Below the pieces are notes generated by a model. That model was not told where the DNA came from. It did no database searches and was given only the letters and a program-made list of their open reading frames with translations. Below, piece by piece: positions 27,050 through 45,290 of a stretch of DNA of 64,000 bases; the stretch's first letter is position 1; each line of letters starts with the position of its first letter. Source of the stretch: a virus; the IMG/VR virus record IMGVR_UViG_3300033153_004214, positions 64,001-128,000 of that record, one strand, 5' to 3'. The translations under genes and the position numbers were made by a program.

Positions 27050-27270
27050 CCCTCAAAGAAGAACTGGAGCAGTTCCTACAGGACAATCTGTTCATGGAAC
27101 CGGACTTGCTGCTCAAGGAGTTCCGGTCGAAGTTCGGGCAGCACGCCATGATGTTCAAGGACATCCCCGACAAGCCGGAGGCGACCAAGGTGGACACCTA
27201 TCTGGTTGTCAACGGCACTGAGGTCTTCGCGGTGTGCCGGGGCGTGAGGGCCGAACTCCAAAGGCGGTAG
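27046..27270 (+). CDS. small hypothetical protein
   Basis: 74 residues: LKEELEQFLQDNLFMEPDLL then a basic helix and a beta end (VDTYLVVNGTEVFAVCRG). Leads into the large structural gene. No family is recognised. Confidence 0.6.
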   Translation: MTLKEELEQFLQDNLFMEPDLLLKEFRSKFGQHAMMFKDIPDKPEATKVDTYLVVNGTEVFAVCRGVRAELQRR

Positions 27271-27278
27271 CAGAGGAC

Positions 27279-29402
27279 ATGACCGTGGCAGGTACTCCTC
27301 GCATTCTATCGCTGCACAACGAGCTTCCTGAGGTCGGCGTTGCCGAAATTGAGTATCCAGATGGCTCGGTCTACAAGTACGAGTTCGACGGTGGCAACGT
27401 CCCAATACTGAGGCAAAAGGCTCGTCATGAACCCGGTCTCGCCGCCAATATCATCAAGAAGATTGCCTACGAAACGAGGAAGACCAAAGAAGGAACGAAG
27501 GTTGTCCGTCAGCTACCGAAGGACAGGCTCCCACCCAAGCTGGGCTACGAGCAGACGAGGCTCTTTCCTGAGTCGATGACCTTCGAGGATATGATCAACG
27601 AGGCTGTAAGGATCACCGGGCCGACACTACCTCCTGTTGATCCACGACAGATGCGTTTGTTCCCTGAGGGTGATCCTCTTGAAGGATGGTACACTGGTTC
27701 TGTTTTTACTAACTACGACTCATGGGACGTAGTTGATAATGAGGACGATTTCGAGTCGGCTGTTTTACAGGTCGCATCTGTTGTAGAAAATATTGAAATA
27801 GAAATGGAGCAGTACACAGCCGAGTGGACACACCCGGAGATTGGCGAGTGGGTAGGGCTGGATGAAACCTATTCGAGTGTTGCTGATGCAGAGAGGGCTG
27901 CTCAGGAAGCAGCGTATGAATGGATTTCTGCGCGGACATCGGAACTAGAGTTGGAACGAGAAGAAGCAGAGGGTGATGAAGAAGCGTTAGCAGAAATCGA
28001 TGATGATCCTGATGAGGATGATATTGAAGTTCGTACAGACATCGCTAATACTGATGCCTACGTTAGTGGTCAAGTAACTTTCTATTCAGAAGAGTTCGAT
28101 GACACTGTAGCTACCTTCGATGTGTATGGTAATGGTGACTCATATTTGGTTAGTATCGATAATGAAGACTGGCTCTTAGCCATGCAGCAGTTAGGCTATA
28201 ACATCAAAGTGGGTTCCCACGAGGGTATGCCTGAGCGGAGACTAAGCGCCCATGTCACGGAGGCAGTACAGGTCCTTGGTCCTTCTCTACCATCGGAGGA
28301 CCCGAGGCAGTCTACCCTGTTCGCAACCAAGTTGGATGCTTCACTAGAGACAATCGTTGATCACCTTCTTCAAGCTGGGTTCAAGAGCCACCAGATGACA
28401 GCAGAAAACGGTGTGGCCAACGAAGATTGGATACCGGTTAGCCCGGGGATATTCCGCTATGTGTACGCAGATGAAGATGATGATCCAAATGGATGGCTGG
28501 ATGGTCCCTATGGTCGTGGTGGTATTTTCCTTGATGTGGGGGATGTAGGAGAGGAAGGAGTCAAGTTCATAGCAAACCTTGGTGCATCGTCATGGACACC
28601 AGACTGCCCGGAACAGAAGGATGCGGAACTGGCAGTGCGTGCCTTGCGTCGTGCAGGCTATGAGGTTAATGAACGGCCCAGTAGGAGTCGGATTCCTAGT
28701 TACCTTGCAAGTCCACCTACTAGCAGACGAGCGGAGTCCCTGCAGAGCTTCGAAGACATGGTTGCATTCTTGCGGCTGCAGGAGTCTAAGAATCCGGCGG
28801 CGAAGCAAATCCTCCTGTTGGAGGATGCACCTATTCGTGTCCAGACAGTCAATCGACATCTTGATACCTTTGGTAGACCAGCCGAACATGTCTACCAGAT
28901 AGTGGCGATCTCGCCTGATGTGAAGCTGGGTGTCGATGACACTGTGGTTGGTTACATTGACTATACGTACTTGCCTAGTGATGACCTCATCCACATCAAC
29001 ATGATCGAGGTCATGGAGGAGTACCGGCGACAAGGCATCGGTACAAAGATGATTCAAGCTTTGAAGCAGGAGTGGCCTGACCAGAAGATCAATTGGGGTA
29101 TGTTGGTGGGCCATGGTGCTGAGTTCAAGAGATCACTGGGTGAAGACCAGCAGACTCATGGCTATGCATGTGTTATGGGTGATATCCCCGATGTGAAGAT
29201 ATCACTAGATAACATGCGTGAGCAGATTGATCCCAAGGACCTTGTGGACGAAGACCTCGGTGATCCGAAGAAGGAGGGTCCTTGGGAGCAGGTGAAGATC
29301 GATAAGATCAAGGGCTACCACAGCGACGAGATCAAGGAGGTTGGCTCAACACACGTACTGACTGGTTCAAGGAAGTTGACAGTGGTAGCCATGATTCAGT
29401 AG
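27279..29402 (+). CDS. giant modular protein A, GNAT-like domain, putative internal head protein
   Basis: 707 residues. TFEDMINEAVRITGPTLPPV (about 103-122) and TEAVQVLGPSLPSEDPRQST (about 327-346) are two of nine (x)EAVxIxGPTP modules in the region. An acidic middle precedes the second. Residues about 590-625 read MIEVMEEYRRQGIGTKMIQA, the acetyl-CoA loop of a GNAT acetyltransferase. The frame ends at 29402, but protein-like sequence continues in the -1 frame (GGWLNTRTDWFKEVDSGSHD) into the next gene, so A and B may be one protein of about 1,200 residues. ATG 27279 follows GCAGAGG. Confidence 0.65.
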   Translation: MTVAGTPRILSLHNELPEVGVAEIEYPDGSVYKYEFDGGNVPILRQKARHEPGLAANIIKKIAYETRKTKEGTKVVRQLPKDRLPPKLGYEQTRLFPESMTFEDMINEAVRITGPTLPPVDPRQMRLFPEGDPLEGWYTGSVFTNYDSWDVVDNEDDFESAVLQVASVVENIEIEMEQYTAEWTHPEIGEWVGLDETYSSVADAERAAQEAAYEWISARTSELELEREEAEGDEEALAEIDDDPDEDDIEVRTDIANTDAYVSGQVTFYSEEFDDTVATFDVYGNGDSYLVSIDNEDWLLAMQQLGYNIKVGSHEGMPERRLSAHVTEAVQVLGPSLPSEDPRQSTLFATKLDASLETIVDHLLQAGFKSHQMTAENGVANEDWIPVSPGIFRYVYADEDDDPNGWLDGPYGRGGIFLDVGDVGEEGVKFIANLGASSWTPDCPEQKDAELAVRALRRAGYEVNERPSRSRIPSYLASPPTSRRAESLQSFEDMVAFLRLQESKNPAAKQILLLEDAPIRVQTVNRHLDTFGRPAEHVYQIVAISPDVKLGVDDTVVGYIDYTYLPSDDLIHINMIEVMEEYRRQGIGTKMIQALKQEWPDQKINWGMLVGHGAEFKRSLGEDQQTHGYACVMGDIPDVKISLDNMREQIDPKDLVDEDLGDPKKEGPWEQVKIDKIKGYHSDEIKEVGSTHVLTGSRKLTVVAMIQ

Positions 29403-29449
29403 CTCGATCTATCGCCGGAGTAGACAATGCCATCGAAGCTCGTAAGCAG

Positions 29450-30865
29450 ATGTTTGCTGATGGCTGGGTGCGTGTTGTTCAAAATGGCATCGAACTAGAC
29501 CCCAAGACAGCAAACTTGCGGAGTGTGAAGCATTTCGTTGATGTGATGAATGCGACTGAACTTTGGTTGGACTTTGTTGACGCTGGCAATCGATGCGTCT
29601 CCGTGAAGTTGGATCGTGAAGAGATGCTTGATCTGGATTCATGGGGTCAAGCCATGCTTCGTGCGGCGCGAGGAAAGAAGCAGGAATCCTTGACTGAGGC
29701 TGAAGAGTCCATGGGTCAGCAGTTCACTGATGCCATGGAGGACCTCATCGGTGAGGGCGCAGTCGGTTTCATGGGTCCTTTCATCATCGTCAATGACAAG
29801 GGCAACAAGACGGCGACCACGCTGGAGATGAGCTTCCATCCTGAGGGCTGGGGCGATCTTCCTCTCATGAACCTTGGCTTCATCGGTGTGGCCCCTGAAA
29901 ATCGCAGGAAGGGCAATGCAGGTAGAGTGTTGAACCTGTTGACCAGTGTTGCTGATAAGAAGGGTTGGCGCATGGGTCTTGATGTCCAGCCCACCAAGAT
30001 GAGGGGTGACCGTCGCGTTCCAATGACCAAGCGACAGCTTACTGTTTGGTATAAGAGGTTTGGGTTCAAGCCGGGCAAGTACGGCAACATGGTGCGGAAC
30101 CCTGTTGAGTACACAGTTCCTACGGAGCCGAAGCCGAATGCAGGGGTCAGGGTGATCGCCAATGATCCTACCGCTGAGAAGCCGTTGAAGCTGGATGATA
30201 AGACGCGAGAGATTGATATGGATGAGTCACTGATTGAAGGTAAACGTGTGTGTGCTTGGTGTAAGAAGGTCATGGGAACTAATAAAGAAATACCAGATGG
30301 GGAGGTATCACATGGTATCTGTAAGGCGTGTGTTGATAAGCTGAATAAGGAACTAGATGGATTAAAGAAGCCAAAGGACAAGTCGTTGGCTGAAGCAGCC
30401 GGTCCTCGTGAGGTGAACTGGCGCTACTCCGATGATGCACTTGGAATAGTGCCGTACCAGATGGGCTTGAGGGGCTATCAAGCGTACACAGTTAAGATGA
30501 CTATCGATGAGTTCCTTGCGCTCAACCCATCGCCTGACGCGAGCAAGGAGAGTCGTGCCTTCCTTGTAAGTGCGATGGAGAAGGGCGCTGCGATAGCTCC
30601 TCCCTTCATATATGTTGACTGGGAGGATGGCCACTGGAAAGTTTGGCAACATGAAGGTCGTACACGATCTACCATGGCTAAGCAGTTCACTGGTTCTGGC
30701 GATACTCTTATCCCGGTGACAATCTTCCCATACAATGAGAACTCCAAGTTGCATCTGGACAGGATGACTCCAGAGCAGAAGGAGCAGATGTACACGTTCC
30801 ACGCTGACAAAGCTGTGGTCAACCCAAACTTTGTGGTAGTCGCAAAGCCCAACCAACCTGTATAA
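29450..30865 (+). CDS. giant modular protein B, GNAT-like and ParB-like regions
   Basis: 471 residues from ATG 29450, though coherent sequence extends upstream to about 29306 without a start codon. MNLGFIGVAPENRRKGNAGR and KRQLTVWYKRFGFKPGKYGN are GNAT motifs. A CAWCKKVM...GICKAC zinc site is followed by SLAEAAGPREVNWR, an LxE-Ala site. The C-terminal part has IYVDWEDGHWKVWQHEGRTR and TLIPVTIF, a HEGRxR pattern seen in ParB-like folds. Possible packaged acetyltransferase. Confidence 0.6.
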   Translation: MFADGWVRVVQNGIELDPKTANLRSVKHFVDVMNATELWLDFVDAGNRCVSVKLDREEMLDLDSWGQAMLRAARGKKQESLTEAEESMGQQFTDAMEDLIGEGAVGFMGPFIIVNDKGNKTATTLEMSFHPEGWGDLPLMNLGFIGVAPENRRKGNAGRVLNLLTSVADKKGWRMGLDVQPTKMRGDRRVPMTKRQLTVWYKRFGFKPGKYGNMVRNPVEYTVPTEPKPNAGVRVIANDPTAEKPLKLDDKTREIDMDESLIEGKRVCAWCKKVMGTNKEIPDGEVSHGICKACVDKLNKELDGLKKPKDKSLAEAAGPREVNWRYSDDALGIVPYQMGLRGYQAYTVKMTIDEFLALNPSPDASKESRAFLVSAMEKGAAIAPPFIYVDWEDGHWKVWQHEGRTRSTMAKQFTGSGDTLIPVTIFPYNENSKLHLDRMTPEQKEQMYTFHADKAVVNPNFVVVAKPNQPV

Positions 30866-30887
30866 TGGTGTGGGGATGGAGAACCAG

Positions 30888-33800
30888 ATGGCAGATGATA
30901 GAACACTCGACTCCGAAGCTGCAAAAATGCTCACGCAGTATGAGGACGAGCCGACCTCGATCTGGCTCTACACTGACATGTCAGTCAAGGATCGTATGGC
31001 ATGGGCCTACCTCGCGGCAGACGCATTCAAGAGTGTCCCTTTCAAGAAGGACATGGTTAGGGCCTTTGTCGAGGCGATGACCAAGGTCACTGATCCTCCC
31101 GAGACTTTCTGGGAGCAGATCAAGGACAAGGACGATGCTCGGGCCAATTATCTTGGTCAGTTGGACTGGGACATCGAGACAGTCCCTCTTGACGAGATAG
31201 GTGTCTATCCTCGTTTCTCAAGCTACCCTAATGAGTGGTGTAAAGGTAACGTGGCTGAGACAGCTAAGCGCATTACGGAGGATGAGAGCCACCCGGACAA
31301 GAAGGCGAAGCTCCTTCAGATGTCTGAGAAATATCAGACAATCTTGAAATTCCTGCCGCCTATTCTAGTTCCGGGTGGCATCCTTCGAGGCGAACAGCCG
31401 GGTTACGAGTTGACGAAGTACACCTGCGATGACGGCAACCATCGGCTCGTGGTTGCTGCCCTTGCGGGTGAGAAGGAAGCTGTCTGCTTCGTGGGGAAAG
31501 CGAAGGAGCACAAGGAAGTTCCTGTCGCTGAACTGGAGCCGCAGAAGGCTGAGTCCTTGAAGCTGGGGCAGTCCTTGTCTGAAGCTGTTAGGATTAGTGG
31601 TCCAACTCCTGTATCTAGAGACCCACGACAAGCCAGTCTTTTGCCTCCTATTGATGCTATTATGTTGATGCATACTATCGGTGACAGACTTATGATCATT
31701 TCAGGCGATACACGTGATGGGGATGGCTGTACATGGAGTGGGCAACAGAGTATTCACGGGGGCATACTAAGAAATAAGTATGAGATTCTATTTCGTGACC
31801 CTGATACAGGCGGTTGGTTTATTGCGGAATTTTTCTCTTCTACCGACTCAGCAGCAGATGCCGAAGTTATTCTTCTACGAGTGCATAATAGTAATAACCC
31901 TAATGACGCTGAACTTATTCGTAATGTAGCTACTGAGTTTACCAAAGAAGGTTACATGGTAGGTCAAGCTGGTCCGAACTTGTTTGTCTACGATCCAAAT
32001 AGGGTTGACAGACCGCACGACTGGGGTCGCAGGCAAACGGAAGCAGTACAGATTCGAGGGCCATCTGCTGCCCGTACTGATCCTAGACAATTAGTTCTTT
32101 TTACTCAGCAGAAGAGGACGCTTGATACTGTGCTTGATCTTCTTCGTAGGGCCGGTTGGCTTGTTAACGATTCCCAATGGGGTGATCCTCGCAGCATAGC
32201 TCGGATGTACACGGTAAGTACCCCGAGTGATTATCCTATCAGGTTCTCAATATACACAGATAGAATCTTTTCCGGTCTTGTCGTTCTCGCGCACGTCATT
32301 CCTTTCCAACTGGTTGGAAAGGTAAGTGAAAACATCCGCAAGGCCATGCAGGTATTGGAGAATGCTGGCTTTGAGGTGACAGAAGAGATCAACAATAGGC
32401 TCTGGGATATCAAGCTTCCTGATGAGCCAATGCCGGAGCCGAAAGCTGTTGGCGAATCTACTTTTTCTTTGAAACTTGGGCAGTCCTTGTCTGAAAAGAA
32501 GAAGTTCAAGAAGATCAAGGGTGCTCCAAGCATCTTGGTAGTGGGTCTTTTGCCCGGCCAAGCGGAGCGAGTGCGCCAGAAGTTCCGTAATAAGGCCAAT
32601 CTTGCTTTTGTGGTCGAGAAGGATGTCAGTGCTCCTATCCCGCCGAGGGCTGACTGGGCTGTTGGTCTGACTTCATTCATCAGTCATAAGCAGGATGGCA
32701 AGGTAGCTGGTGTCTACGGGAAACGGTATCTTCGTGTGATCGGTGGCGTCTCTTCTGTTATAGCCAAGATTAATAACATTCTTGCTGGTAAGCCGTATGA
32801 GAGTCTTCCATCGCCAGCTACACTACGCGAAGCCGTGAATATCGCCGGGCCAAGTAGATCGCAGGAGCAACCGGGCCAACAACGGTTCTTCGGTAGTTCA
32901 TTCGATGACATGCTTGACCTACTGGCTGACAACAATTGGCAGATAGAACGTGACCCTGACCTAGAAAGATTGACTTTTGTTACCCGGGGGTATTCAGTGT
33001 TTCCACGCATAATGTATGGAAGCACAGTACGCAAGAGGAATCCTGTATCCATTTATCTCTATGCTCGGCAGTCACCGGGTCACCCGGTGACTGCTACAGT
33101 GATGAGTACAGGTGGATTTGTCAGTGAACACAATCTGCTTGAGATCATAAAACTGTTGAAGAATAGTCATTTTGATGCTACATTAATGACAAGCCCAACC
33201 TCCACGTTGCAGCCAGCATGGAGTGTGAAGCTTCCAACTGAACCGGTACCGACTGTCCAGACCGAGGCGGTCTACATTCAGGGGCCGACACCGGAGCGGC
33301 GAGATGTGCCGGGGCAGATGATGATCAGCCCTGTGTTTATTGGAGGGTTGGAAGTAGAAAAGCTCACTCGCCAAATCGAGTCAATAGGTTTGGTCAAGGT
33401 TCCTGAAGCATCCAGTGCAGACACCATTGTCTTCACAGATCGTGAAACTGGTGGTATTGTCAAACTCGTTATACAGAGTTCTGTCGGGGGTAATGAAGTT
33501 GTCGGTCTTATGCCTAATTTTGATCCTCATACAGTAGTCTCAGAGATACCGGAGGACGAATTTCCTGACATCAGGCGTGACCATGAATTGTATATGCGAG
33601 TAGCTACTGCCCTTCAGGCAATGGAGGATGTGGAAACTCGTTCGGTTCAAGCTGATGAGCTTTTAGGTGAAGCTATTCAGATCGCTGGTCCCACTCCCAA
33701 AAAATTAGATACTCCCGGACAAATGCGGTTAGGGTATGTTGGTGGTGGCCCAAGCATTGCATCAGGAGAATACCTCGTTAATCTGTTGAGGGGTGTTGGG

Positions 33801-35048
33801 TACCAACAGGTAGAATATCCTGTTGAGATTCCACAGCCGACTACTGAGTTCGACTGGAAGCGGTACAAGTTGCTTCAAGGTATCTATGTCCCAGAAGTTT
33901 ATAGTGGTGGAGCGCCAGTGGCGAGCAGTGAATGGCACAAGCAAACCTTGCCAGAGGCTATAGAGGTTCTTAATAGCCTCATGCAGAATGAACAGGTCAC
34001 TACAGGTAAAGTCAAGTTCTACCATGGGGAGCCTCGGCCAAACGCCCCCACAGCCGAGTTCGATGCTGAAGGTAATTTGACAGCGGCTGAAAGCGCATGG
34101 TTCAATGATATGAATAAGTATGGTTTCATAGCCCAGTTTGGAAAGCCGATTCAGCGAAAGCTTGCTGCGGCGCACCCAACAAGGGTTCGTGAGATTGATG
34201 AGATACGCCATAGCCGTCATGGTCAGGAGTATTGGGTTCTCATGTCACCGGGACCCAAAAGCAGGCGTGGTTATGTTTTCCTTGAGCATCAATACGCAGA
34301 TCAGTGGAGTGGGGAAGGTTCCGATCCACTTGATGCTGTATCGATACGTCCTGTGGCCGGTCCTAGCGATGCAGGACGTAAAAGGGACCAGCAGGCATAT
34401 GTTGATGCTTTGAACTTGATCTATAAGTCAGGTATCACACCTCTGTATGTTGATCCAGAAAAGATTGGCATAAGAGATCAGCCTGTTGCAAATTCGTCTG
34501 CATGCTTCTTTAGTGAGCCTCCAACAGAAGCCACTCGTGAACAAGTGATGACAAGAGTCTCTAAGTATGATCCCCATATTGGGGACGAGATGCTTGAGAT
34601 CACACCTCTGGGTGAAGCGGTTCAGATTGCAGGACCTAGTGGTGCAACAGAGACACCCGGACATTTGAATCTGTTCCTTGGCAGGAATTTCTACCGGATT
34701 AAGAATGAGCTACTCAAGCGGGGCTACAAAGACGAGGGTCGGTTGGGACTTGTAGATTCTTCCGCTATTCTGTCGGCTAAGGTAAGATTGCCGAATAACG
34801 AGTCAGTAGATGGCTACATGTCTCTGATTAGCTATGAAGATGATCAGGAAAATATCGGGCACACCTTCTTGTTCCCATATCATGCTCCAGACAAGACCAT
34901 TGTTGACTTCTCTGATAAGTTGGCCACCAGATATACTGGTGAGCTTCTGGATATGCTGGGTTACGAGATAGCTCTGTTTGGTGCTGGCTTTCGTGTAGAT
35001 GCTGCTCCTGAAGAGTTTACCAGAGCAGTGGAGAGTAGCCTTGGGTAA
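30888..35048 (+). CDS. giant modular protein C, six GPTP modules, ParB-like N-terminus
   Basis: About 1,386 residues. The N-terminal part has VPLDEIGVYPRFSSYPNEWC and CDDGNHRLVVAALAGEKEAV, a ParB-like nuclease-fold signature. Then come six modules: SEAVRISGPTP, TEAVQIRGPS, REAVNIAGPS, TEAVYIQGPTP, GEAIQIAGPTP and GEAVQIAGPS. Most are followed by an amphipathic helix such as TLDTVLDLLRRAGW. Between modules 2 and 3 lies a LVVGLLPGQAERVRQKFRNK domain like DUF2325. ATG 30888 is preferred (GGAG at 30878). Inferred polyprotein, cut at LxE-Ala sites. Confidence 0.65.
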   Translation: MADDRTLDSEAAKMLTQYEDEPTSIWLYTDMSVKDRMAWAYLAADAFKSVPFKKDMVRAFVEAMTKVTDPPETFWEQIKDKDDARANYLGQLDWDIETVPLDEIGVYPRFSSYPNEWCKGNVAETAKRITEDESHPDKKAKLLQMSEKYQTILKFLPPILVPGGILRGEQPGYELTKYTCDDGNHRLVVAALAGEKEAVCFVGKAKEHKEVPVAELEPQKAESLKLGQSLSEAVRISGPTPVSRDPRQASLLPPIDAIMLMHTIGDRLMIISGDTRDGDGCTWSGQQSIHGGILRNKYEILFRDPDTGGWFIAEFFSSTDSAADAEVILLRVHNSNNPNDAELIRNVATEFTKEGYMVGQAGPNLFVYDPNRVDRPHDWGRRQTEAVQIRGPSAARTDPRQLVLFTQQKRTLDTVLDLLRRAGWLVNDSQWGDPRSIARMYTVSTPSDYPIRFSIYTDRIFSGLVVLAHVIPFQLVGKVSENIRKAMQVLENAGFEVTEEINNRLWDIKLPDEPMPEPKAVGESTFSLKLGQSLSEKKKFKKIKGAPSILVVGLLPGQAERVRQKFRNKANLAFVVEKDVSAPIPPRADWAVGLTSFISHKQDGKVAGVYGKRYLRVIGGVSSVIAKINNILAGKPYESLPSPATLREAVNIAGPSRSQEQPGQQRFFGSSFDDMLDLLADNNWQIERDPDLERLTFVTRGYSVFPRIMYGSTVRKRNPVSIYLYARQSPGHPVTATVMSTGGFVSEHNLLEIIKLLKNSHFDATLMTSPTSTLQPAWSVKLPTEPVPTVQTEAVYIQGPTPERRDVPGQMMISPVFIGGLEVEKLTRQIESIGLVKVPEASSADTIVFTDRETGGIVKLVIQSSVGGNEVVGLMPNFDPHTVVSEIPEDEFPDIRRDHELYMRVATALQAMEDVETRSVQADELLGEAIQIAGPTPKKLDTPGQMRLGYVGGGPSIASGEYLVNLLRGVGYQQVEYPVEIPQPTTEFDWKRYKLLQGIYVPEVYSGGAPVASSEWHKQTLPEAIEVLNSLMQNEQVTTGKVKFYHGEPRPNAPTAEFDAEGNLTAAESAWFNDMNKYGFIAQFGKPIQRKLAAAHPTRVREIDEIRHSRHGQEYWVLMSPGPKSRRGYVFLEHQYADQWSGEGSDPLDAVSIRPVAGPSDAGRKRDQQAYVDALNLIYKSGITPLYVDPEKIGIRDQPVANSSACFFSEPPTEATREQVMTRVSKYDPHIGDEMLEITPLGEAVQIAGPSGATETPGHLNLFLGRNFYRIKNELLKRGYKDEGRLGLVDSSAILSAKVRLPNNESVDGYMSLISYEDDQENIGHTFLFPYHAPDKTIVDFSDKLATRYTGELLDMLGYEIALFGAGFRVDAAPEEFTRAVESSLG

Positions 35049-35571
35049 GATCATAGTCAATCTGCTCGAATCCTGCCTGCCACCATCTTCGTTTGAGGAT
35101 GCGGTGGACGCTTCTGTCTCAGGGGACCAAGGTCTTGCTGCGGCCTTCGTTCAGGGTCTTGGTGAGGCTGTTCGCATTTCTGGACCCACTCCTACACCGG
35201 AGACCTCCGGGCAGCAGAAGTTGTTCAATGTGAATGCTACAATAGAAGAGATATCCGATTTGTTGGCGAAGCGTTTCAACCGGGACATATCAGGTGGTGG
35301 GGTCCTGAAATTGTCGAAATTCCATGACCCTGAAACTGCCGGGCAGTTTTTACTGCGGCTTAACTATCAACAACCGTATTACAGGTACCCAAAATTGGAA
35401 CCAGTCGCTGGTATGTATGATCCTGCGGCGGCGCGAAGAATAGATCAGAATGCATTCGCAGATGCACTTCAGTACTTGAGTGACAACAAGATTCCATGGC
35501 ATCTTGTCAGGGGCGAGAACTATGCGATCATAGGAGAAGAAAAGCCATACATGGAGCAGCCACCAAGGTAG
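35041..35571 (+). CDS. small GPTP-module protein
   Basis: 176 residues from TTG 35041, overlapping the previous stop. SSFEDAVDASVSGDQ and LGEAVRISGPTPTPETSGQQ put both recurring motifs in one short protein, then TIEEISDLLAKRFNRD and a helix-beta domain ending WHLVRGENYAIIGEEKPYM. It looks like one module of the giant proteins on its own. Confidence 0.6.
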   Translation: MGKIIVNLLESCLPPSSFEDAVDASVSGDQGLAAAFVQGLGEAVRISGPTPTPETSGQQKLFNVNATIEEISDLLAKRFNRDISGGGVLKLSKFHDPETAGQFLLRLNYQQPYYRYPKLEPVAGMYDPAAARRIDQNAFADALQYLSDNKIPWHLVRGENYAIIGEEKPYMEQPPR

Positions 35572-35645: not shown

Positions 35646-38600
35646 ATGAAGCTGGACAAGGCAGCGGTTGCGGCGAAGATCGCGAAGTACTACCAGACCC
35701 AACTGACACAGGGTCCTGTGGATGTGGTGGTGTCCGCGTTCGAGGAAAGACCAGAAGGTGGTCATCTCGCCAAGGCGGAAGTCGCCTTCAAGACCGATGT
35801 CGAGTCGGGTAACGCCGATAAGATCGCATTGACCATCGGCTGCAGTGACGAGGGGGTCCTCGATTGGAGTAGCGCCGTTATCGATGCGACCGGCGATGAA
35901 AAGCCCGCGCCCTCTCTCGCCGCAGCGAGCGTCGATCCTGAGGCATTCAAGGACAGGAAACCTCCTGAGAACGATGAGGTGCCGACCCCTATGCCTGCTG
36001 ATGCTGCGAAGCCTGAGAAGGAGATGCCAAAGCCTGACTCAGGTGTCGAGTTTGTCACTGACGAGAAAACCGGTGGCGAAGCAACTCCAGCTGACAAGGA
36101 TCACCCAGCTGCTGCGCTCGCCATGGAGTCGAAGAAGCAAAAGCGGCGTGAGGCTCGCGCGAGGGTCAAGCCAGCCGATGAGCTTGGCTGGCCGACCGGC
36201 GATGCACTCCTCGTGGACGAGAAGACGATGCCTCGCGTGCGGATCAACGAGGATGGCACTGCGGTTGATGGTGAAGGCCAGACAGCGGAAGAGGATGGCT
36301 TCAGCATTGATGAACTCCTTGCAGACGAAGAAGCATCAGGTGAGATCGACTTCGAGTCGCTGCCTGAGTCGCAGCAGACGCAGCTTGCCGCAGCCGCGAT
36401 GGCTGGTGCAGCAGCCTCTGCCGGGGTAGAGGCTCCTGCAAGTATTGTTCACCCCCTCGAAGAGTCCATGGCTCCGGCTGCTCAGGTCACCGAAGATGAT
36501 GATGATGACGACGACAAGTACGACATGGATGGTGAACTGAACGCTGGTGAGCCGAAACCAGCGGAAGAGACAGCCGCCACAGGTGCTGTAGATACTTTCA
36601 TCAACAATCTGGCTGCGGACTTTGCGGACCAGAATGAGGAGACGATGCTCAAGTCCGTGGAAGCCTTCTGCTCATCTCTTGGTATCGATTGCACCGAAGA
36701 CATACTTAGCAGGGCGCGGGCGGCTATTGGCGGTGGGGCCAGTGACGCTGAAGATGTGGTCGCTGCTGAGACAAGTATCGTTACTATTGATCCAGTCATT
36801 GGTCTGGCCAACCTCGTTGGTGGTGTAGACGATGAGTTGGCTGAACCCGATGAGGAGACTGACGAAGAGGAAGACCTCATTTTCGATGAGATCGAGGACG
36901 AAGACGTTGAAGATGATATGGAGGCCGCTGCTGAGGAAGGCTGTCCTGCTCCCGGCAGTAAGATTAAGAGTAAAGGACAAGGGCGCGGTCTCGCACGTGG
37001 GCGGGGTAAAGGTCCGATAGGTGTTCCAAAGAATGAGGCTATAATAGGAAGAGGACGAGGGCTGGCCAGAGGCAGGGGTAGAGGCCCACTGGGTCGTCCT
37101 GCGCTCAATATCAGTGACGAGGACGTTGAAGACAACAAGGCCGCAGCTACTGCGGCTGGTTGCCCCGCTCCCGGTAGCAAAATCAGAAGCAAAGGCAAGG
37201 GCAGAGGTCTCGCACGAGGTAGGGGTAAAGGCCCTGTTGGTGTGCCTGTCAAAGAAGACAAGTCCAGCGGTTCTTCAGAGGAGGAAACCGCGCACGTGGA
37301 GGAGAGTGTCATGCGGAACTCTATGGTTGTCCGTCTTGGTGAGACCGCGAGTGTGAGGGGTATCGCTGAGGCGATCCACGAGCGGTTCCCTGAACTGAAG
37401 TACGTTATCCTTGAAGCAGAGGATGGCGAGGGGAGGCAGTTGCTGTTCAACGTCGATCCCGAATGGGACCTCGACGCCACAGTGAATCAGGTCAACGAGG
37501 CGCTGCAGGCCAAGGTGCTTCTGGCCGATGCGACGGCTGGTCCTGAACTGACCGAGGACGAGGTCGCGTCCTACAGCTTCGGTCTTGCTGGCGGTTCGCA
37601 GGGCATCGGCATGGACAAGGAAGGCTATCAGGGTCAGAAGAACCCGACCACGCAGAAGGACCCGAACTATGGCGAGAAGAACACCTCGCCCGGCCCCAAG
37701 AACCTCAGCGGCACGCCTGAAGGTGAGCAGGGTGGAGCGCAGGCTGCGGGTACCCAGCCTACCAAGGGTGATAAGAAGAAGCAGCAGAAGGTTGGCCCTT
37801 CCACGAATGATAGCGGCACTGACGGTTCGCCCGGCCCCAAAAAGCTCGCCAAGGTCAAGAAGGACGAGTATGGTGGTTCGGGCAACAAGTCCGGTGCCAA
37901 GAAGGCCAAGGAGTCCTTCGAGGACGCGATGACCACGTTCCTCACTGAGACCGTTGTTACGCATCTCAAGGAGCAGAACCCGTTCGCTGTCGAGGCGGAA
38001 GAGGAAGAAGAAGCCGACAGCGTCGATGCTGATGTCGCTGCGGAGATGGGTGCCGAGGAAGCCGACTACGGTGCCGAGTTCGCGGAGGCTCCTGACCTTG
38101 ACCCTGTGATTATCTCGATGGTGCAGGCGCAGGCCGACCACAGCCTTGAAGCCGCTCACGAGGTTGCCGAAGCCTACTTCTCAGAACAGGGCATGGAGTA
38201 CAGCGATGACATGCGCTCGAAAGTGGAAGAAATCTTCAAGTCCTTCAGTGAGCCTGCAGTTGCTGCTGAGGAGGAGGAAGCCGAGGAAGAGGTCGTGGTC
38301 GATGAGCCTGAGGCTGAGGGTGGCGAGGCCGTCGAGGTGGAGACCGAGGCTCGGGGCATGGAGTACGAGTCGATTGCCCGTAAGGTCCTTGGTGACGAAC
38401 TCTACGAGAAGATGATCTCGGCCAAGAAGCGCCTCAAGCAGGAGACCATGGAGGCCGTCGCGGATGACGAGAAGCTGACGCAGCGCATCCGCGAGCGTGT
38501 CGAGAAGGTCCTGAATGAGGAGTCGGGTGCCGGGTCCGTCATCACGCAGAAGGACCATAGTGGCCATCCTGACTCATGGCAGCGTGTTCAGATGAAGGCG

Positions 38601-39215
38601 GGAACCCGCACCAAGACCGGTAAGATCAAGCCCAATGTGAAGTTCAAGGGCAAGGTCCGCGTGGTCTGGGATGACGGGCATGAAGAGTTCATCGAGCCGA
38701 GCAAGCTTAACAACGTCGCTGGCAAGAAGAAGGCCGGTGGTGAGCAGGCGAAGGTGGGTGGCGATAAGGCCCCTCAGATGTCCACAAAGGAATGGGGAGG
38801 TAAGAAGGGGCTGGAGTCGATCCAGCGCGAGAGCGAGCAGCGTAGGCGTCTCGACACTGCCGTGGAGCACCTTGTACACGGCGGCAAGTTCCCTGAGAGC
38901 GAACTCATCGAGGTGCTCATCGAGCGGGCTGACGAATTCAAGGCTCCTCTCAAGGGTCTCGAAGAAGATGCTGAGGAGACCGAGGAAGAGGAGACCAAGC
39001 TCGAAGAGTCGAAGAAGGATGAGAAGGCTCCTGTCACCGAAGACGAAGACGGTGAAGAGGAGGGTGAGCTTTCCGAGGAGGAACTCGAAGAGATGGCTGA
39101 GGCCCTCCTTGATGACGAGGAGTTCACCATCATCTCTGAGGACATGGATGGGGGCGAAGAAGAGTTCAGCGTGACCCTTACCGAAGACGAGATGTCGGAA
39201 GTCGAGGACGAGTAG
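35646..39215 (+). CDS. acidic prohead-core-like protein with RG-rich repeats
   Basis: 1,189 residues, with runs of Asp and Glu (DDDDDDDKYDMDGE; EAEEEEEADSVD). A globular N-terminus of about 90 residues comes first. At about 430-535 lie GCPAPGSKIKSKGQGRGLAR and two further RGLARGRGKGP-type repeats, basic islands in an acidic chain. ESFEDAMTTFLTETVV (about 757) matches the recurring FExxVxxxL motif. Acidic scaffolds of T4-like proheads (gp22, gp67) are cut into small acidic peptides inside the head; this protein fits that role by composition and place. GGAGGGCACGAT precedes ATG 35646. Confidence 0.6.
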   Translation: MKLDKAAVAAKIAKYYQTQLTQGPVDVVVSAFEERPEGGHLAKAEVAFKTDVESGNADKIALTIGCSDEGVLDWSSAVIDATGDEKPAPSLAAASVDPEAFKDRKPPENDEVPTPMPADAAKPEKEMPKPDSGVEFVTDEKTGGEATPADKDHPAAALAMESKKQKRREARARVKPADELGWPTGDALLVDEKTMPRVRINEDGTAVDGEGQTAEEDGFSIDELLADEEASGEIDFESLPESQQTQLAAAAMAGAAASAGVEAPASIVHPLEESMAPAAQVTEDDDDDDDKYDMDGELNAGEPKPAEETAATGAVDTFINNLAADFADQNEETMLKSVEAFCSSLGIDCTEDILSRARAAIGGGASDAEDVVAAETSIVTIDPVIGLANLVGGVDDELAEPDEETDEEEDLIFDEIEDEDVEDDMEAAAEEGCPAPGSKIKSKGQGRGLARGRGKGPIGVPKNEAIIGRGRGLARGRGRGPLGRPALNISDEDVEDNKAAATAAGCPAPGSKIRSKGKGRGLARGRGKGPVGVPVKEDKSSGSSEEETAHVEESVMRNSMVVRLGETASVRGIAEAIHERFPELKYVILEAEDGEGRQLLFNVDPEWDLDATVNQVNEALQAKVLLADATAGPELTEDEVASYSFGLAGGSQGIGMDKEGYQGQKNPTTQKDPNYGEKNTSPGPKNLSGTPEGEQGGAQAAGTQPTKGDKKKQQKVGPSTNDSGTDGSPGPKKLAKVKKDEYGGSGNKSGAKKAKESFEDAMTTFLTETVVTHLKEQNPFAVEAEEEEEADSVDADVAAEMGAEEADYGAEFAEAPDLDPVIISMVQAQADHSLEAAHEVAEAYFSEQGMEYSDDMRSKVEEIFKSFSEPAVAAEEEEAEEEVVVDEPEAEGGEAVEVETEARGMEYESIARKVLGDELYEKMISAKKRLKQETMEAVADDEKLTQRIRERVEKVLNEESGAGSVITQKDHSGHPDSWQRVQMKAGTRTKTGKIKPNVKFKGKVRVVWDDGHEEFIEPSKLNNVAGKKKAGGEQAKVGGDKAPQMSTKEWGGKKGLESIQRESEQRRRLDTAVEHLVHGGKFPESELIEVLIERADEFKAPLKGLEEDAEETEEEETKLEESKKDEKAPVTEDEDGEEEGELSEEELEEMAEALLDDEEFTIISEDMDGGEEEFSVTLTEDEMSEVEDE

Positions 39216-39267: not shown

Positions 39268-41019
39268 ATGAAAGATCACGTGGATAGCCCAGAGGTCGAT
39301 GTCCTCATCGAGGGCAAGCGTCGGTTCGATGAGGTCATAGCTGACATTCCCATCGACCAGTCTTCTCGTGTCTACATGGTCCGCGTCAAGGATGGGATGG
39401 TTGACGATCAGGGCTGGATCACCGTTGACGAGGCTCGCAGGAAGAACGCTCTTGACCGTCGCAGATATGGCAAGACCATCAACCGCTACTTCAACAACAA
39501 GGACTTCGCAGGAGCCTACATCGATGACTCTACCGGTGCCGGTGAAGCAATGGGTCCTGAGATGCCCGGTGGGGAAATGGCTGGACCTCCTGATGTTGGT
39601 GGTACGCCCGATCTTCCTGAGGACCCGGCTCTTGCCGGTGGCCCTCAGGGCGGTGGCGAAGCACCTCCGCCAATGGAGCCGTTCGATCCCAGTATGCCAC
39701 CACCTCCTGAAGAGGCAGGGCTTCCGGGTACGGACGAGTTTCCTGAGCCGATGCCGGGTGGTGTGCTCGATACGATGGGGGAGGAGCCGGGTCTTGGTGA
39801 CGAGTTCAGCGACGACCTTGATGACGAGTTTAGCGACGACCTTGGTGACGAAGAGGACCTCTTTGGCGCGGGTGACGAACTAGGCGATATTATCTCCGGC
39901 GAGGAAGTAGAAGAAGAAGAGCCTTTCGAATTAGAAGTTCCTCGCCGCATCAGACTCGTTCCTGTCAAGGAATCAAAGGAGTCTTTTGAAAATCTCGTGG
40001 AGGACACGCTCCTTGAGATGTCGAACAGCACGGCTGCAGAGACATGGGCGCAGGGTGGCAGACTTCCACCGGGTCGGTTGGTTGGCGACCGGAGAAGGGC
40101 TGCACTTGCGTTCACTGACAACCGTGCGTATTCCTACGGTCTCCCTATCGCGCAGATCGATAGGGAGAACAATGTAGCTCGTGTTCACTCCGGCACGAGG
40201 CCAAGTGGGTACCGATACTCCATGACGACCACCAGCCACATCGAGATTGTGAATAATGCGCTCCACATGGCTGGGATCGAAACAGAGACGGCTGAGTTCG
40301 AGCATCCTGAGGGTGAGCATTTCGCTATGCCTAGCATGAGCATGGACATAGGAGGTTTGCGCTCCTATCAGGATGTGGAGGCTCCTGAGCTTCCGGTCGC
40401 GCAGCGACGTGAGATGCCACGGTACCGGCGTCCTCGCAGCCTGCAGTTGGGTCTACCGATTGGAGAATCACAGAAGGAAGCCTTCAAGGACGCTTGGATC
40501 ACGACTGAGCAGATGGAGAACATCTGCTCTGACTGTGCCAAGCAGATGAAGGAATCGAAGATCACCCGCGTTCGCGCCGATGTGTTCCTCCTTGGCGAGA
40601 AGAGTGAGCGGGACACCAAGGCATCCGGGGGTGACGGTTGGCCCAAGAAGGTGAAGAAGGGCCGCTTCACTGAGTGGTGCCGCAGGAACGGCTTCGAGGG
40701 CGGTGCCAGTGTGGCATGTGCCAAGAAGGCCATGGATTCGGACGACGCCTCCGTGCGTGGAATGGCCTCTTTCTATATGAACACTGTCAAGCCGGGCGGC
40801 AAGACTGCCAGCGCGGTGGGTGACAAGGAGGAGTCGATGCAGATCAAGGACACGAGCGAAGAGGGCGTCATGGAGGCCCTGATGGATGGGGACATCTCTG
40901 CTGCAGAGGCTGCGGAGATGTTGGAGAAGTGCAAGGTTCCACCCCAGTTCAAGTCGAAGCTGGACAACAAGGCGGCGAAGGTCAAGCGTGCCAAGAAGAA
41001 TGCAACCGACAAGAAGTAG
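39268..41019 (+). CDS. acidic structural-type protein with Cys-containing domain
   Basis: 583 residues. N-terminal 85 residues basic and globular, then a Pro/Gly/Asp/Glu-rich disordered stretch (GDEFSDDLDDEFSDDLGDEE), then KESFENLVEDTLLEMS (recurring motif), a beta domain, and near 440-510 an SDCAKQMKESKI ... GRFTEWCRRNGFEGGASVAC region known from phage proteins that end ..A.FYMN..K. The C-terminal 60 residues are helical and Lys-rich. Probably another head-core component. Confidence 0.6.
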   Translation: MKDHVDSPEVDVLIEGKRRFDEVIADIPIDQSSRVYMVRVKDGMVDDQGWITVDEARRKNALDRRRYGKTINRYFNNKDFAGAYIDDSTGAGEAMGPEMPGGEMAGPPDVGGTPDLPEDPALAGGPQGGGEAPPPMEPFDPSMPPPPEEAGLPGTDEFPEPMPGGVLDTMGEEPGLGDEFSDDLDDEFSDDLGDEEDLFGAGDELGDIISGEEVEEEEPFELEVPRRIRLVPVKESKESFENLVEDTLLEMSNSTAAETWAQGGRLPPGRLVGDRRRAALAFTDNRAYSYGLPIAQIDRENNVARVHSGTRPSGYRYSMTTTSHIEIVNNALHMAGIETETAEFEHPEGEHFAMPSMSMDIGGLRSYQDVEAPELPVAQRREMPRYRRPRSLQLGLPIGESQKEAFKDAWITTEQMENICSDCAKQMKESKITRVRADVFLLGEKSERDTKASGGDGWPKKVKKGRFTEWCRRNGFEGGASVACAKKAMDSDDASVRGMASFYMNTVKPGGKTASAVGDKEESMQIKDTSEEGVMEALMDGDISAAEAAEMLEKCKVPPQFKSKLDNKAAKVKRAKKNATDKK

Positions 41020-41052: not shown

Positions 41053-44000
41053 ATGAGCAAACAGAATCCGCTGGACTTCGAGACCATGGTGGATCAGGTT
41101 CTCGAAGCTAAGGCCCAGAAAGGCCAGATCACCAAGGCGGCAAAGCAGTTTGGTCTCAGGCCCAAGCAGATCAAGGACGCTCTCGCCTCGATAGACCCCT
41201 CCGGTCGATCTTCCTACGGCGACTGGCTCATCAAGATGTGGATGAAGGGGGATATCGATCCCACGAAGGATGCCGACCGCATCAAAGAAGTAATGCGGGC
41301 ATGGCATGAACTGAAGAAGCGGGCCTTCCTGCCAGATAAGTTTGCTGTTCTGACCTCTAGGAAGTACCCGGACTTTGAAACTTTGGTCAAGGTTGTCAGG
41401 GAGTACATGCTTCGTCTTCCCAAAGAGTTTCAAGTACAAGGAGAAGAAGAGGAACGAGTAGCGCCCGGCAGGGAGTTCATTGCTACTCACTATACTGACT
41501 ACGAGGAAGCGAAAGATTATCTCAACAGGCCAGTGTGGAGTCGAAGGGACCATCCGCCTGCTGCTCGACCACGTTACCTGGGTGGAACAATTCATTCAGA
41601 CCGTGAGGGTTCATGGTGCATTCGTAACCCGGAGTATTTTTCTTCTGAACTCGATGAAGAAGGTGGTTTCATCGGCGTGATGAAGTATGAGCCTGACATG
41701 GTGAAACCGAATGTAGTACCGGACCCGATTGATACTATTCGTCGTTATGAAGCTGGTGAACTTGGGTCTGAGGATGTGCCTTATTGGGTGGAAGATGAAG
41801 ACCTTCGCCAGTACGCTGTTGATAAGCATGGTGGTGGTTATCTCGTAAAGGATGAGCTTCCCTATACGACGATCTACCTTGCTCAGATCGTAAGAGGGCA
41901 TGTTGTACTTTGGGACAACAATGACAAACCGTATGCCGCTACCGAGGACATAAGCTCCTCTCCTGCGAGCAGCCCGGAACCAGCGGAACCATTCATGGCG
42001 TCTTTTGGTTCGGTGTCGGAGCAACTTAATGCAATGCGAGGTGCCGTTGCTGATGCTTCTCCAGAGGTGAGGCAGGCAGTCGAAAACTTTATTAACATGG
42101 TGTATGTCTCGCCAGAAGTTGAAGAGCGCATGGCTGAGTATTCCGATGTGCTTGATGGTCGAAAAGTCAATCTTGATGATCTCATGAAGCAAAGGGCTGG
42201 TGTCAACAAAGTCACACGGGTAGCTAACCTCCGTGATTTCACGCAGAGGTTCTCAGAGGTACCGGGTGTTGAGGTGTTTGGTGATGAGGATGATCCTACT
42301 ATTCTGGTTCATGTGAACGTTCAAGATCAGGGTGTCTGGGACTACCTCGCGCGGATCGCTACAGGTGAGTCCATGGCTCCTGACATTGAAAAAGAAGTGA
42401 TGCGGGAGATAATGCTCAGTAAGTTTATCAATGAGTACCTTAATCCAAATAAACCAGATACTTACTTTGGTCAGCACGCTTACGATAAGTTCCATAGGAT
42501 TGAACAAGAACAGGGTGCTGTACCCGGGCAGGTGACAATAGTTAAGGCTAATAAAGAGTGGGGCCAACTACCCGGCATTGAAAGTGAACAGAAATGGAAG
42601 GCGATATTCGAGCGTGCCATGCAGAGGCTTGGTGCGACATGGAATTTTAATCCAAAGGATAACACCCTGACTCTTGAGGGTGCGACGTTCAAGGACATCA
42701 TCGATGAATTGGAGATAGAGGACTTATGGTACGTCTACGATCCACAAGCAGAGGTTCCTCGTATCCAGATAAAGCGACAGCAGCAGCAGCAGTTGCTTCC
42801 TCCTTTCCAGTATAAGTATAAGAATGAGGAACCGCCACAGTACCAGTTGGCCACGGCTCTTGAGAACACTCAGTTCGAGCGCCTCGTCGAAAAGAAAGTC
42901 AGGAAGGACAAGTCAAAGGCTGCTGGTAAGAAGGCTGCTGGTAAGAAGGGTGCTGAGAAGAAGGACTCTAAGAAGAAGAAAGCTGACAAGCGCACTGAAG
43001 AAGAGAAGGACCGTCAGTCCAATATCTATCAGTGGTTCGCTGGCCTTCCAATGCGGCCCATGCCTGAGAAGGCCGACTTTAAGAGGTCCTTGGAGTTCTT
43101 CGGTAAGCACGCCTTCTCGAACAAGGTGAAGGTTGCGGAGGTCAACAAGAAGAAGAAGTTTGCCAAGCTGGTCTCCGAGCAGACTTCTGATGTGAACCCG
43201 GATGATGTGGCGTTCCTGCGACGGCATCTGCTTGCTCGTGGTTTTCGGGTCAAGCCCGTGAAACCTTGGCCCGGCGGTGAGTACGTTCGGATGAAGCTCT
43301 TCCGTATCGGGCAGGACTTGCTCGCGCCCATCGCCCCTGAGGCGACACCATTCCTCCCTCCCGAGGCTGGGGAGCATTTCAAGCATCTCGTGCCGCAGGA
43401 AAGCTTTGAAGGCGCTGTGGAGCGGCTGATGGAGAAGGTCCCAATGTTCAAGGGGGAACCACGTATTGGGCCTCGCGCAGGCGATTCGTTTGTGGACGCG
43501 GTGGACTTAGAACTGCAGCACATGACAGGCATGACATTGGGCACATGGATAGATTGGCTTGGGCAGCAGGGTGTTACGCCGAAAGCCGTTATGCTTGGAT
43601 TGGATTACGCCTTCAGGCAGGGCTATTCGTCTGCGGAGACTGCTACCTATCTGGTTTCAAGAGCGACAAAGGGTTTTGGTTCTTCTACTACGATGCCTTT
43701 TGGGGAGAACAAGCCTCAATTCGACAGGCTTGTGGAGAAGGCTCTTGGGCTGGCGGCGCAAGAAGGCATTGGCGTCAATGATGTAGACCCTGAAGAGCTT
43801 CGCATGGGTATCAAGGTCGAGAAGGAGCATGGTGGAAGTGAGAGTGACTGGATCAGGATCGCACTCGACCACCTTACGGAAGACCCCAAGTACTACTCCA
43901 AGGGTAAGGCGAAGGGCTTCTTCCACGAACTCACTGGTGAGGACAGCCACGAGCGAGTTCGTGGGCCGGAGGTCGAAGAGGAGACTGACATGGGCGACCC

Positions 44001-45123
44001 TGCAAACTTCTCCGAGGAGTCATGGACGGAGTCGTTGCTCGACGAGGCAGGACCCACTGGCTCGGACTTGATGTACCGCCACTTCAACCCGGACTGTTGG
44101 AAGTGTGGGAAGAAGCTGGACCACAAGGATATGGCTTCTGGCAAATGCCAGCAGTGTTTTTCAGACATCTCTGGCGAGCCTCGGTTCCCACACCGTAAGC
44201 CTAAGTGGAACCCAAAAGCTTCTGGGAAAGGTCGGCGCATTGATGTCACAACGAGGCCCAAGACTGCGTGGGAGAGCAGCATGAAAGACTTTGAAGGGCT
44301 GGTTGAGGAGAGTCAGTGCAATGACCTGATTGAGTCGCTCTCCAAAGCGCAGCGTGTCTTGGTGATTGAGGAACTGCTGGAGTTCCGGCAGGAGCGACCG
44401 GGCCAGCAGTACGGGACGGGACCCAGGCAGAGGCAAATGCCAACGATCACGCCACCCGCTCGTGGGCCAAATGCGCAGCAACAGCAGCAACCGCAGCAAC
44501 AGCAGGGACAACTCAACGACAGAGAGCGGACAGTCCTTGGATGGTACATGGCTGCTTCGGGTAAGGGTGGCAGCGTGGACGCTTATCCGCCGCAAGAACA
44601 GGTGGAGTGGTTCAACGACGCTGGTCGCCTCAAGGGAATCGTCAGTGCTCTAGCCCAAGAGCGTTGGTTCCCGAAGGTGATGAGCATCCTGTTTCCTGAT
44701 GACAGGGCGCGGTATGCGTTCCTCGCTGACAAGGTCAGGGGCATCAGCCGAGGTGCTAACAAGGCAGTTGCCCCGGGCGGTGAGCGACCACCTGCCCGTG
44801 GTGCTTTCCAAGCGCCCCGGCGAGAGAGTGTTGAGAAGAAGTCTGGCAAGCTCTATGAGTTCTCGACTCCTGAGCGCCAGTCTGCTATCCTGTGGGCACG
44901 CGGCGTTCCGGTGAGCCGGAACAACCCCAAGACACCGATGTGGTTCCAAGAGAACGAAGCCTACGCTCTCTGGGACAAGATCGCGGAGGTTGACCGTGAG
45001 ACGAAGTCGGCTAAGGTTCTGTCGCCCAAGGTCACCTCAGCGTTGACAGGGCGGCAGATCAAGATAGTGGAGAACGCTCTCCGCTGCACGCAGTTCGCGG
45101 TGGAGTTTGTTGAGGGCTGGTAA
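41053..45123 (+). CDS. giant modular protein D, multiple FExLVE motifs
   Basis: 1,356 residues. Recurring motif at DFETMVDQVLEAK (start), DFETLVKVV, QFERLVEKKV, ESFEGAVERLMEK, QFDRLVEKALGLA and DFEGLVEES. Between them lie an ATHYTDYEEAKDYLNRP domain, a long Lys/Ala linker (KSAAGKKAAGKKGAEKK-like), a CWKCGKKLD...CQQC zinc finger near residue 1015, and a Gln-rich stretch. Each motif starts a new domain, suggesting a bead-on-string internal head protein. Preceded by GGGGAACCGGGC. Confidence 0.6.
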   Translation: MSKQNPLDFETMVDQVLEAKAQKGQITKAAKQFGLRPKQIKDALASIDPSGRSSYGDWLIKMWMKGDIDPTKDADRIKEVMRAWHELKKRAFLPDKFAVLTSRKYPDFETLVKVVREYMLRLPKEFQVQGEEEERVAPGREFIATHYTDYEEAKDYLNRPVWSRRDHPPAARPRYLGGTIHSDREGSWCIRNPEYFSSELDEEGGFIGVMKYEPDMVKPNVVPDPIDTIRRYEAGELGSEDVPYWVEDEDLRQYAVDKHGGGYLVKDELPYTTIYLAQIVRGHVVLWDNNDKPYAATEDISSSPASSPEPAEPFMASFGSVSEQLNAMRGAVADASPEVRQAVENFINMVYVSPEVEERMAEYSDVLDGRKVNLDDLMKQRAGVNKVTRVANLRDFTQRFSEVPGVEVFGDEDDPTILVHVNVQDQGVWDYLARIATGESMAPDIEKEVMREIMLSKFINEYLNPNKPDTYFGQHAYDKFHRIEQEQGAVPGQVTIVKANKEWGQLPGIESEQKWKAIFERAMQRLGATWNFNPKDNTLTLEGATFKDIIDELEIEDLWYVYDPQAEVPRIQIKRQQQQQLLPPFQYKYKNEEPPQYQLATALENTQFERLVEKKVRKDKSKAAGKKAAGKKGAEKKDSKKKKADKRTEEEKDRQSNIYQWFAGLPMRPMPEKADFKRSLEFFGKHAFSNKVKVAEVNKKKKFAKLVSEQTSDVNPDDVAFLRRHLLARGFRVKPVKPWPGGEYVRMKLFRIGQDLLAPIAPEATPFLPPEAGEHFKHLVPQESFEGAVERLMEKVPMFKGEPRIGPRAGDSFVDAVDLELQHMTGMTLGTWIDWLGQQGVTPKAVMLGLDYAFRQGYSSAETATYLVSRATKGFGSSTTMPFGENKPQFDRLVEKALGLAAQEGIGVNDVDPEELRMGIKVEKEHGGSESDWIRIALDHLTEDPKYYSKGKAKGFFHELTGEDSHERVRGPEVEEETDMGDPANFSEESWTESLLDEAGPTGSDLMYRHFNPDCWKCGKKLDHKDMASGKCQQCFSDISGEPRFPHRKPKWNPKASGKGRRIDVTTRPKTAWESSMKDFEGLVEESQCNDLIESLSKAQRVLVIEELLEFRQERPGQQYGTGPRQRQMPTITPPARGPNAQQQQQPQQQQGQLNDRERTVLGWYMAASGKGGSVDAYPPQEQVEWFNDAGRLKGIVSALAQERWFPKVMSILFPDDRARYAFLADKVRGISRGANKAVAPGGERPPARGAFQAPRRESVEKKSGKLYEFSTPERQSAILWARGVPVSRNNPKTPMWFQENEAYALWDKIAEVDRETKSAKVLSPKVTSALTGRQIKIVENALRCTQFAVEFVEGW

Positions 45124-45290
45124 TGCGACTGAGCTTTGACCAGTTGATTACGGAAGCACTCCTTTTAGAGAAAAAGTCGGTGGTTGACGGCAAGAAGTGG
45201 TACCACTGCCATACGCACAGGGTCATGGCCATTAGGCCAACGTTGAAGGGTGCGATAAGCGCCTTCGATTTCATCAAGACCACGTCGTAG
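45123..45290 (+). CDS. small protein with T4 internal-protein-like N-terminus
   Basis: 55 residues: MRLSFDQLITEALLLEKKSV then a short basic body. T4 internal head proteins I-III begin MKTYQEFI(N/A)EA and carry the capsid-targeting signal cut after (I/L)xE; this start is closely parallel (SFDQLITEA). TAATG overlap with the giant gene before it. Strong candidate for a packaged peptide. Confidence 0.6.
   Translation: MRLSFDQLITEALLLEKKSVVDGKKWYHCHTHRVMAIRPTLKGAISAFDFIKTTS

Follow-up and report, generated by a model that had tools for sequence, protein, structure and literature searches.

Several long open reading frames (ORFs) of a large, uncultured bacterial virus from IMG/VR repeat one peptide, EAVxIxGPTP, behind a possible protease site, which raises the question of whether they encode polyproteins that are cut into small domains in the forming head. 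The window analysed here comprises 64,000 bases (positions 64001-128000 of a 145,011-base virus record). Unless stated otherwise, coordinates refer to the window, features lie on the plus strand, and a slash marks a proposed cut. A first-pass annotation had proposed that these ORFs are strings of cargo domains released by a prohead protease. We consider it probable, at roughly 0.6, that the long ORFs at 27-35 kb, together with 29450-30865 and 41053-45123, which have another junction style, encode head-cargo polyproteins processed in trans; their cutting, packaging and injection are what we infer from the evidence below.

Nine conserved modules in three ORFs

A six-frame scan for EA(V/I)x(I/V)xGP(T/S) found exactly nine modules, all on the plus strand, with E codons at 27600, 28260, 31581, 32040, 32829, 33264, 33669, 34614 and 35164, within 0-3 bases of where the first-pass annotation had placed them. 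Neither pattern nor profile search found the module in the remaining 81 kb of the record. Two modules lie in ORF A (27234-29402): INE/AVRITGPTLPPVDPRQMRLF (module 1, 27594-27662) and VTE/AVQVLGPSLPSEDPRQSTLF (module 2, 28254-28322). Six lie in ORF C (30870-35048), namely LSE/AVRISGPTPVSRDPRQASLL (module 3, 31575-31643), QTE/AVQIRGPSAARTDPRQLVLF (module 4, 32034-32102), LRE/AVNIAGPSRSQEQPGQQRFF (module 5, 32823-32891), QTE/AVYIQGPTPERRDVPGQMMIS (module 6, 33258-33329), LGE/AIQIAGPTPKKLDTPGQMRLG (module 7, 33663-33734) and LGE/AVQIAGPSGATETPGHLNLF (module 8, 34608-34676). The ninth, LGE/AVRISGPTPTPETSGQQKLF (35158-35226), is in ORF D (about 35041-35571).

The claim that (L/I)xE precedes the modules holds exactly for six of them (INE, LSE, LRE and LGE three times) but not for VTE (28260) or for QTE (32040 and 33264), in which P3 is poor. 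The exact fits named earlier, LSE, LGE and INE, were all correct, but the list had omitted LRE at 32829. PxQ and the hydrophobic pair described after the module core are each present in seven of the nine, PxQ being replaced by PGH and SGQ in the other two.

The degenerate DNA pattern of the module core matched seven times in the window and 0.00 times in 100 dinucleotide shuffles, which rules out a chance origin. Recent tandem duplication was also ruled out, as third-position identity among the modules was random (0.44 for the two-fold codon of E, 0.22 for A, 0.28 for G and 0.17 for P). All nine modules share the same E, A, G and P residues. Because the codons of these residues vary freely and the core is not more alike in DNA (identity 0.55) than in protein (0.57), the peptide is under selection, and recent copying does not account for the likeness.

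Relative entropy was 1.1-1.9 bits from P15 to P4, 2.25 at P3 and 2.0 at P2, reached 3.2-3.9 from P1 (E) to P8' (except 2.7 at P3' and 1.6 at P5'), and was high again at P13'-P16'. Conservation therefore sets in precisely at the P1 residue expected for a gp21 cut. P3, the position that gp21 reads, is the most conserved column upstream of P1 and the only clear preference there, with residues I, V, L, Q, L, Q, L, L and L in modules 1-9. L or I at six of nine against a background of 13.7% gives a binomial probability of 4e-4 uncorrected, or ~5e-3 over ~14 upstream columns, which is supportive rather than decisive because the units partly share ancestry.

The helix claimed to precede each module was not established, AF2 being too weak for this. 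For the unit-4 family (five-row alignment, pLDDT 60), AF2 gave, at low confidence, an alpha+beta core with disordered first 13 and last 12 residues; these ends may match the expectation for accessible junctions. A PDB fold search with this model returned nothing below E=0.25, the model being too weak for fold assignment, and AF2 of unit 9 alone (pLDDT 40) was useless.

Prohead protease and leader peptides

T4 gp21 cuts head substrates at L/I-x-E, and the T4 internal proteins IPI, IPII, IPIII and Alt carry a capsid-targeting sequence (CTS) that is cut by gp21 (PMC9026906, PMC3012670). The first-pass annotation had suggested a search outside the window for a gp21-like (S77/S78) protease, and took the lack of any prohead protease as grounds for abandoning its proposal. 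These grounds fall away, because a gp21-type protease of 503 residues is encoded outside the window (genome 133000-134511). It matches PF03420 (Peptidase_S77, E=8.3e-12), PHROG 207 (E=4e-30) and PDB 5jbl (T4 gp21, E=3e-6), and its pairwise alignment with T4 gp21 covers 163 residues and keeps the HP and SSRG regions; the S78 model found no match in this genome. A gp23-type capsid gene directly follows the protease gene, and a gp20-type portal is also encoded. The capsid protein and its counterparts in eight relatives all carry LxE with N or Q as the next residue (LYE/N, LFE/N, LLE/N, LLE/Q) at the expected propeptide border, a site set by position from T4 gp23 FLTE/A, and we infer from these sequences that the capsid propeptide would be cut there. 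Elsewhere in the genome, the 994-aa terminase large subunit (L003:16785-19766, genome 54785-57769) contains a LAGLIDADG element (PF14528), probably an intein, and a 919-aa ORF (L003:3768-6524, genome 41768-44527) fuses a uracil-DNA-glycosylase domain to a family A DNA polymerase.

Leader-like peptides accompany the candidate sites. SMTFEDMINE (27573-27602) ends at the proposed scissile E before module 1 and resembles the TYQEFIAE/A of T4 ipII and ipIII, both of which start with MKTYQEFIAE/A. SLKLGQSLSE precedes module 3 and recurs inside unit 4 (32466-32495), where it is followed by K and an unrelated domain without the EAV module; the leader or site and the module are therefore separable. Further leader-like sequences are ESFEDAMTTFLTE/T (37911-37949) in the acidic 1189-aa ORF 35646-39215, ESFENLVEDTLLE/M (39979-40017) in ORF 39268-41019, and the N-terminal leader MSKQNPLDFETMVDQVLE/A (41053-41106) of the 1356-aa ORF 41053-45123, which contains FETMVDQVLE/A. 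The last ORF has several further internal F-E/D-x-x-V copies and a degenerate junction, SLLDE/AGPTGS (approximately 44032-44064), before a CxxC..CxxC segment. A 55-aa ORF (45123-45290) that has its own ribosome-binding site, GAGG 7-8 nt upstream, starts with MRLSFDQLITE/A, the N-terminal leader closest to that of T4. Two other properties of these ORFs were recorded: the acidic 1189-aa protein is of low complexity with repeated GRGLARGRGKGPxGxP blocks, making it a candidate scaffold or DNA-binding head protein, and DUF5661 (PF18905, E=9e-11) lies at 43750-43902 within the 1356-aa ORF.

In the giant proteins, (S/T/D/Q/N)(F/Y/W)(E/D/Q)x(L/M/F/A/I)(I/V/M) occurs 12 times against 0.9 expected (~13-fold; at most 5 in 300 shuffles) and SLxE(A/G/K) five times against 0.54, the latter being at chance level in other parts of the genome; as the F-E-x-L-V and SLxE motifs were defined after seeing the data, these counts indicate enrichment, not proof.

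Domains between the sites and a related phage

ORF A (722 aa) consists of an N-terminal part, the leader, unit 1, unit 2 and a C-terminal GNAT acetyltransferase, whose core (residues 567-613, 28932-29072) matches PF00583 with E=5.8e-8. ORF B (29450-30865, 471 aa) comprises a weak GNAT-like segment, a zinc ribbon and a C-terminal domain. It has no full EAV module; SLxE/A or SLxE/G sites stand at its domain borders, namely SLTE/A (E codon 29696-29698), SLIE/G (30236-30238) and SLAE/AAGP (30392-30394). The zinc ribbon, a 52-aa segment with four cysteines (268, 271, 291 and 294), lies exactly between the last two sites (30239-30394). Both ORFs are thus multidomain, but the 'cargo' identity named in the first-pass annotation is not supported for most domains: the GNAT of ORF A is the sole one passing the Pfam cut-off among the listed polyvalent domains, and in ORF B the GNAT match is weak and the zinc ribbon was recognised by eye. 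ParB-like 'DGNHR' and 'EGRTR' segments in ORFs C and B, a visual impression, were dropped for want of Pfam support. No Pfam peptidase was found in ORFs A-D or F, a search that may miss remote homologs.

ORF C (1392 aa) carries its six modules within one chain. ORF D is a stand-alone unit of ~176 aa from a TTG with GGAG 7 nt upstream: a propeptide of ~42 residues with SFEDAV, then LGE/A, module 9 and one domain. ORF D overlaps ORF C in a different frame (34999-35048) and may start at ATG 34999 or TTG 35041, or a frameshift may join C and D. Alignment of the inter-module domains largely upheld the claim of a new domain after each module, since for most pairs of units the likeness is confined to the 20-40 module residues; units 4 and 5 are paralogous, with 32% identity over ~127 residues in a direct comparison.

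A 54-kb relative, G011, was recovered by way of the capsid protein and reaches the same locus, with a homolog of gene 109304-109660 of the record. Beside this homolog are three long ORFs (552 aa, 1080 aa and no less than 966 aa), the 1080-aa one with an AAA ATPase domain, and the G011 giant proteins are likewise multidomain (AAA plus zinc ribbons). Four ORFs begin with the leaders MAKNEIQKAVDRLVGE/Q, MSRDEIKKAVDPLTE/G, MARNEIENAVDSLVNE/Q and VARNEIRKAVDRLVGE/Q, the last starting at a GTG behind GGAG; their pattern is M-A-R-N-E-I-x-x-A-V-D-x-L-V-x-E/Q. Further copies of this peptide lie in the interior of giant chains: SIESAVDKVLGE/P, AIERAVDKVLAE/Q and SIEGAVDQILKE/K. These seven copies, four N-terminal and three internal, compare with 0.57 expected (maximum 3 in 200 shuffles). 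A second junction, (V/L/P)RE/QxGEP, also recurs (in the 552-aa protein, REQ three times against 0.12), and a zinc ribbon lies between two of its copies; a four-Cys zinc ribbon between two sites is found in both phages. Another phage of the lineage thus also reuses an N-terminal propeptide at internal junctions, with other junction letters, and this is the strongest support for the polyprotein reading. Most G011 sites are VxE or xRE/Q, not L/I-x-E, and this differing P3, often V, may reflect drift in protease specificity.

No module-bearing relative was found by tblastn of ORFs A, C and F, the C-terminal part of ORF B and the consensus module against 50,697 phage records, or by protein and DNA pattern scans of IMG/VR or in genome contigs. 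Three pattern matches (L046-L048) were taken as chance, their context being unlike the module, and matches of ORF B (L056-L059) extended no further than the zinc ribbon. Other observations made during the searches concern G011, with a 408-aa protein almost wholly of cysteine-rich C-x-x-x-C repeats (CEVGCEVTCEV..., L036:3045-4271, minus strand) and a Sigma-70 region 2 protein (PF04542, E=2e-12; L036:7635-8054, minus strand) among the giant head-cargo candidates, and two phage proteins. The cultured Xanthomonas phage phiXF1 encodes a 1338-aa multidomain AAA protein, gp14 (L052:11797-15813), that starts with MNRIQRQALTE/A and is a candidate counterpart in a cultured phage; inspection by eye found no repeated junction in it. 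Tunturiibacter phage Tunturi_5 gp273 (L049:4180-8649; 1489 aa, multidomain, NUDIX-annotated) contains a GNAT that shares 50% identity with that of ORF A over 68 residues.

Proposed processing and alternative readings

In the model that we favour, short leaders, often F-(E/D)-x-(L/M/A)-(V/I), would direct the chain to the prohead core in the manner of the T4 CTS. Cleavage of the junctions after (L/I)-x-E by the gp21-type protease would follow, freeing small domains that mostly start with AVxIxGP(T/S)P...PxQxxLF; these domains would remain DNA-associated and pass into the host when the phage infects. The protease gene, the P3/P1 pattern (exact in six of the nine modules), the distinct domains, the single-unit gene D and the same architecture in G011 all fit the polyprotein reading of the first-pass annotation. 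The three modules that lack L or I at P3, and the failure to find the EAV module in any other record searched, count against it. The two QTE sites, of modules 4 and 6, may be cut poorly or left uncut, giving two-domain products. More tentatively, one chain per gene could deliver up to ~7 effector domains to the head in a fixed ratio, and the ~20-residue N-terminal tag shared by the freed domains (AVxIxGPTPxxxDPxQxxLF) could itself serve as a further signal (DNA association, ejection or host docking).

The arrangement resembles that of T4 internal proteins in its gp21-family protease and its diverse cargo behind a shared leader. As in T4 CTS cargo, the ORFs at 45123 and 41053 and the four G011 ORFs have what appears to be a short N-terminal leader with an aromatic/hydrophobic core followed by x-x-E. 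However, T4 has a single N-terminal leader per gene, whereas here leader and site recur within one chain and the conserved peptide follows the proposed cut. The proteases phiKZ gp175 and SPN3US gp245 cut head proteins, including ejected ones, after x-x-E, and some propeptides are cut several times; as far as the available excerpts of these sources go, the substrates lose an N-terminal propeptide, and release of several domains from one chain is not described (PMC10052503, PMC9026906). Phage P1 DarB is likewise a giant protein that is packaged in the head and injected, and it bears an N-terminal signal for targeting, but it has one such signal and no string of self-similar units (PMC9024508).

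Alternatively, ORFs A, B, C and F could be packaged and injected intact as 'polyvalent' proteins, with EAVxIxGPTP as a linker or docking peptide spread by ancient duplication of linker and domain. Polyvalent proteins, described from phages and conjugative elements, are large chains of unlike small domains, GNAT included, that are predicted to be injected (Iyer et al. 2017, PMC5512222). The phage chains described here likewise hold two or more unlike domains. Some multidomain GNAT-type phage proteins are known to be delivered whole; the same authors draw a polyprotein analogy and propose processing by an embedded metallopeptidase, rather than by a separate prohead protease at repeated junctions as suggested here (PMC5512222). 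The paralogy of units 4 and 5 and the QTE of two modules agree with intact delivery. So do the totals of LxE, which are at chance (9 against 9.5 expected in ORF A, 12 against 13.7 in ORF C) and therefore indicate no purge of sites within the domains of these ORFs; (L/I)xE is a short motif. We nevertheless consider intact delivery unlikely, because it leaves unexplained the P3 peak, the abrupt rise in conservation at P1, the second use of one leader in front of an unrelated domain and the internal reuse of N-terminal leaders in G011.

Targeting without general cutting is less likely still. Leaders and modules would then be repeated prohead-core binding sites that provide avidity, with the protease trimming just the first. 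The leader motif is indeed enriched in the giant proteins, and in the T4 CTS targeting, which depends mainly on residues 4 and 7, is separable from processing, which depends on residues 8 and 10 (PMC9026906). However, targeting in T4 acts upstream of the cut, whereas conservation here is strongest downstream of it, and the domain borders of ORF B coincide with candidate sites. Finally, (Q/H)xxLF closes five modules and QxxLL one more, endings that we take to resemble clamp-binding peptides, but several others end in IS, LG or FF and the T4 and G011 sites lack QxxLF, making it very improbable that the retained peptide is a sliding-clamp-type docking motif or other host-binding tag to which cleavage is incidental.

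In a literature search, which mostly covered papers outside subscription, 'polyvalent protein' and 'prohead protease' co-occurred only in PMC5512222, the latter term in its reference list.

It is characteristic of eukaryotic RNA viruses to make true polyproteins that a separate protease releases. To our knowledge, the prohead proteases of tailed phages trim propeptides and core proteins and do not free several mature domains per chain. If the polyprotein reading and its cutting inside the forming head are true, the chains would be the counterpart, in a virus of bacteria, of the polyproteins that RNA viruses of animals and plants make, and would offer a possible answer to how 'polyvalent' proteins without a peptidase of their own are processed. 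The junction peptides would then supply a sequence rule by which injected proteins still hidden in large uncultured phages could be recognised and divided, and would suggest a programmable way of loading several proteins into a phage head in a fixed ratio.
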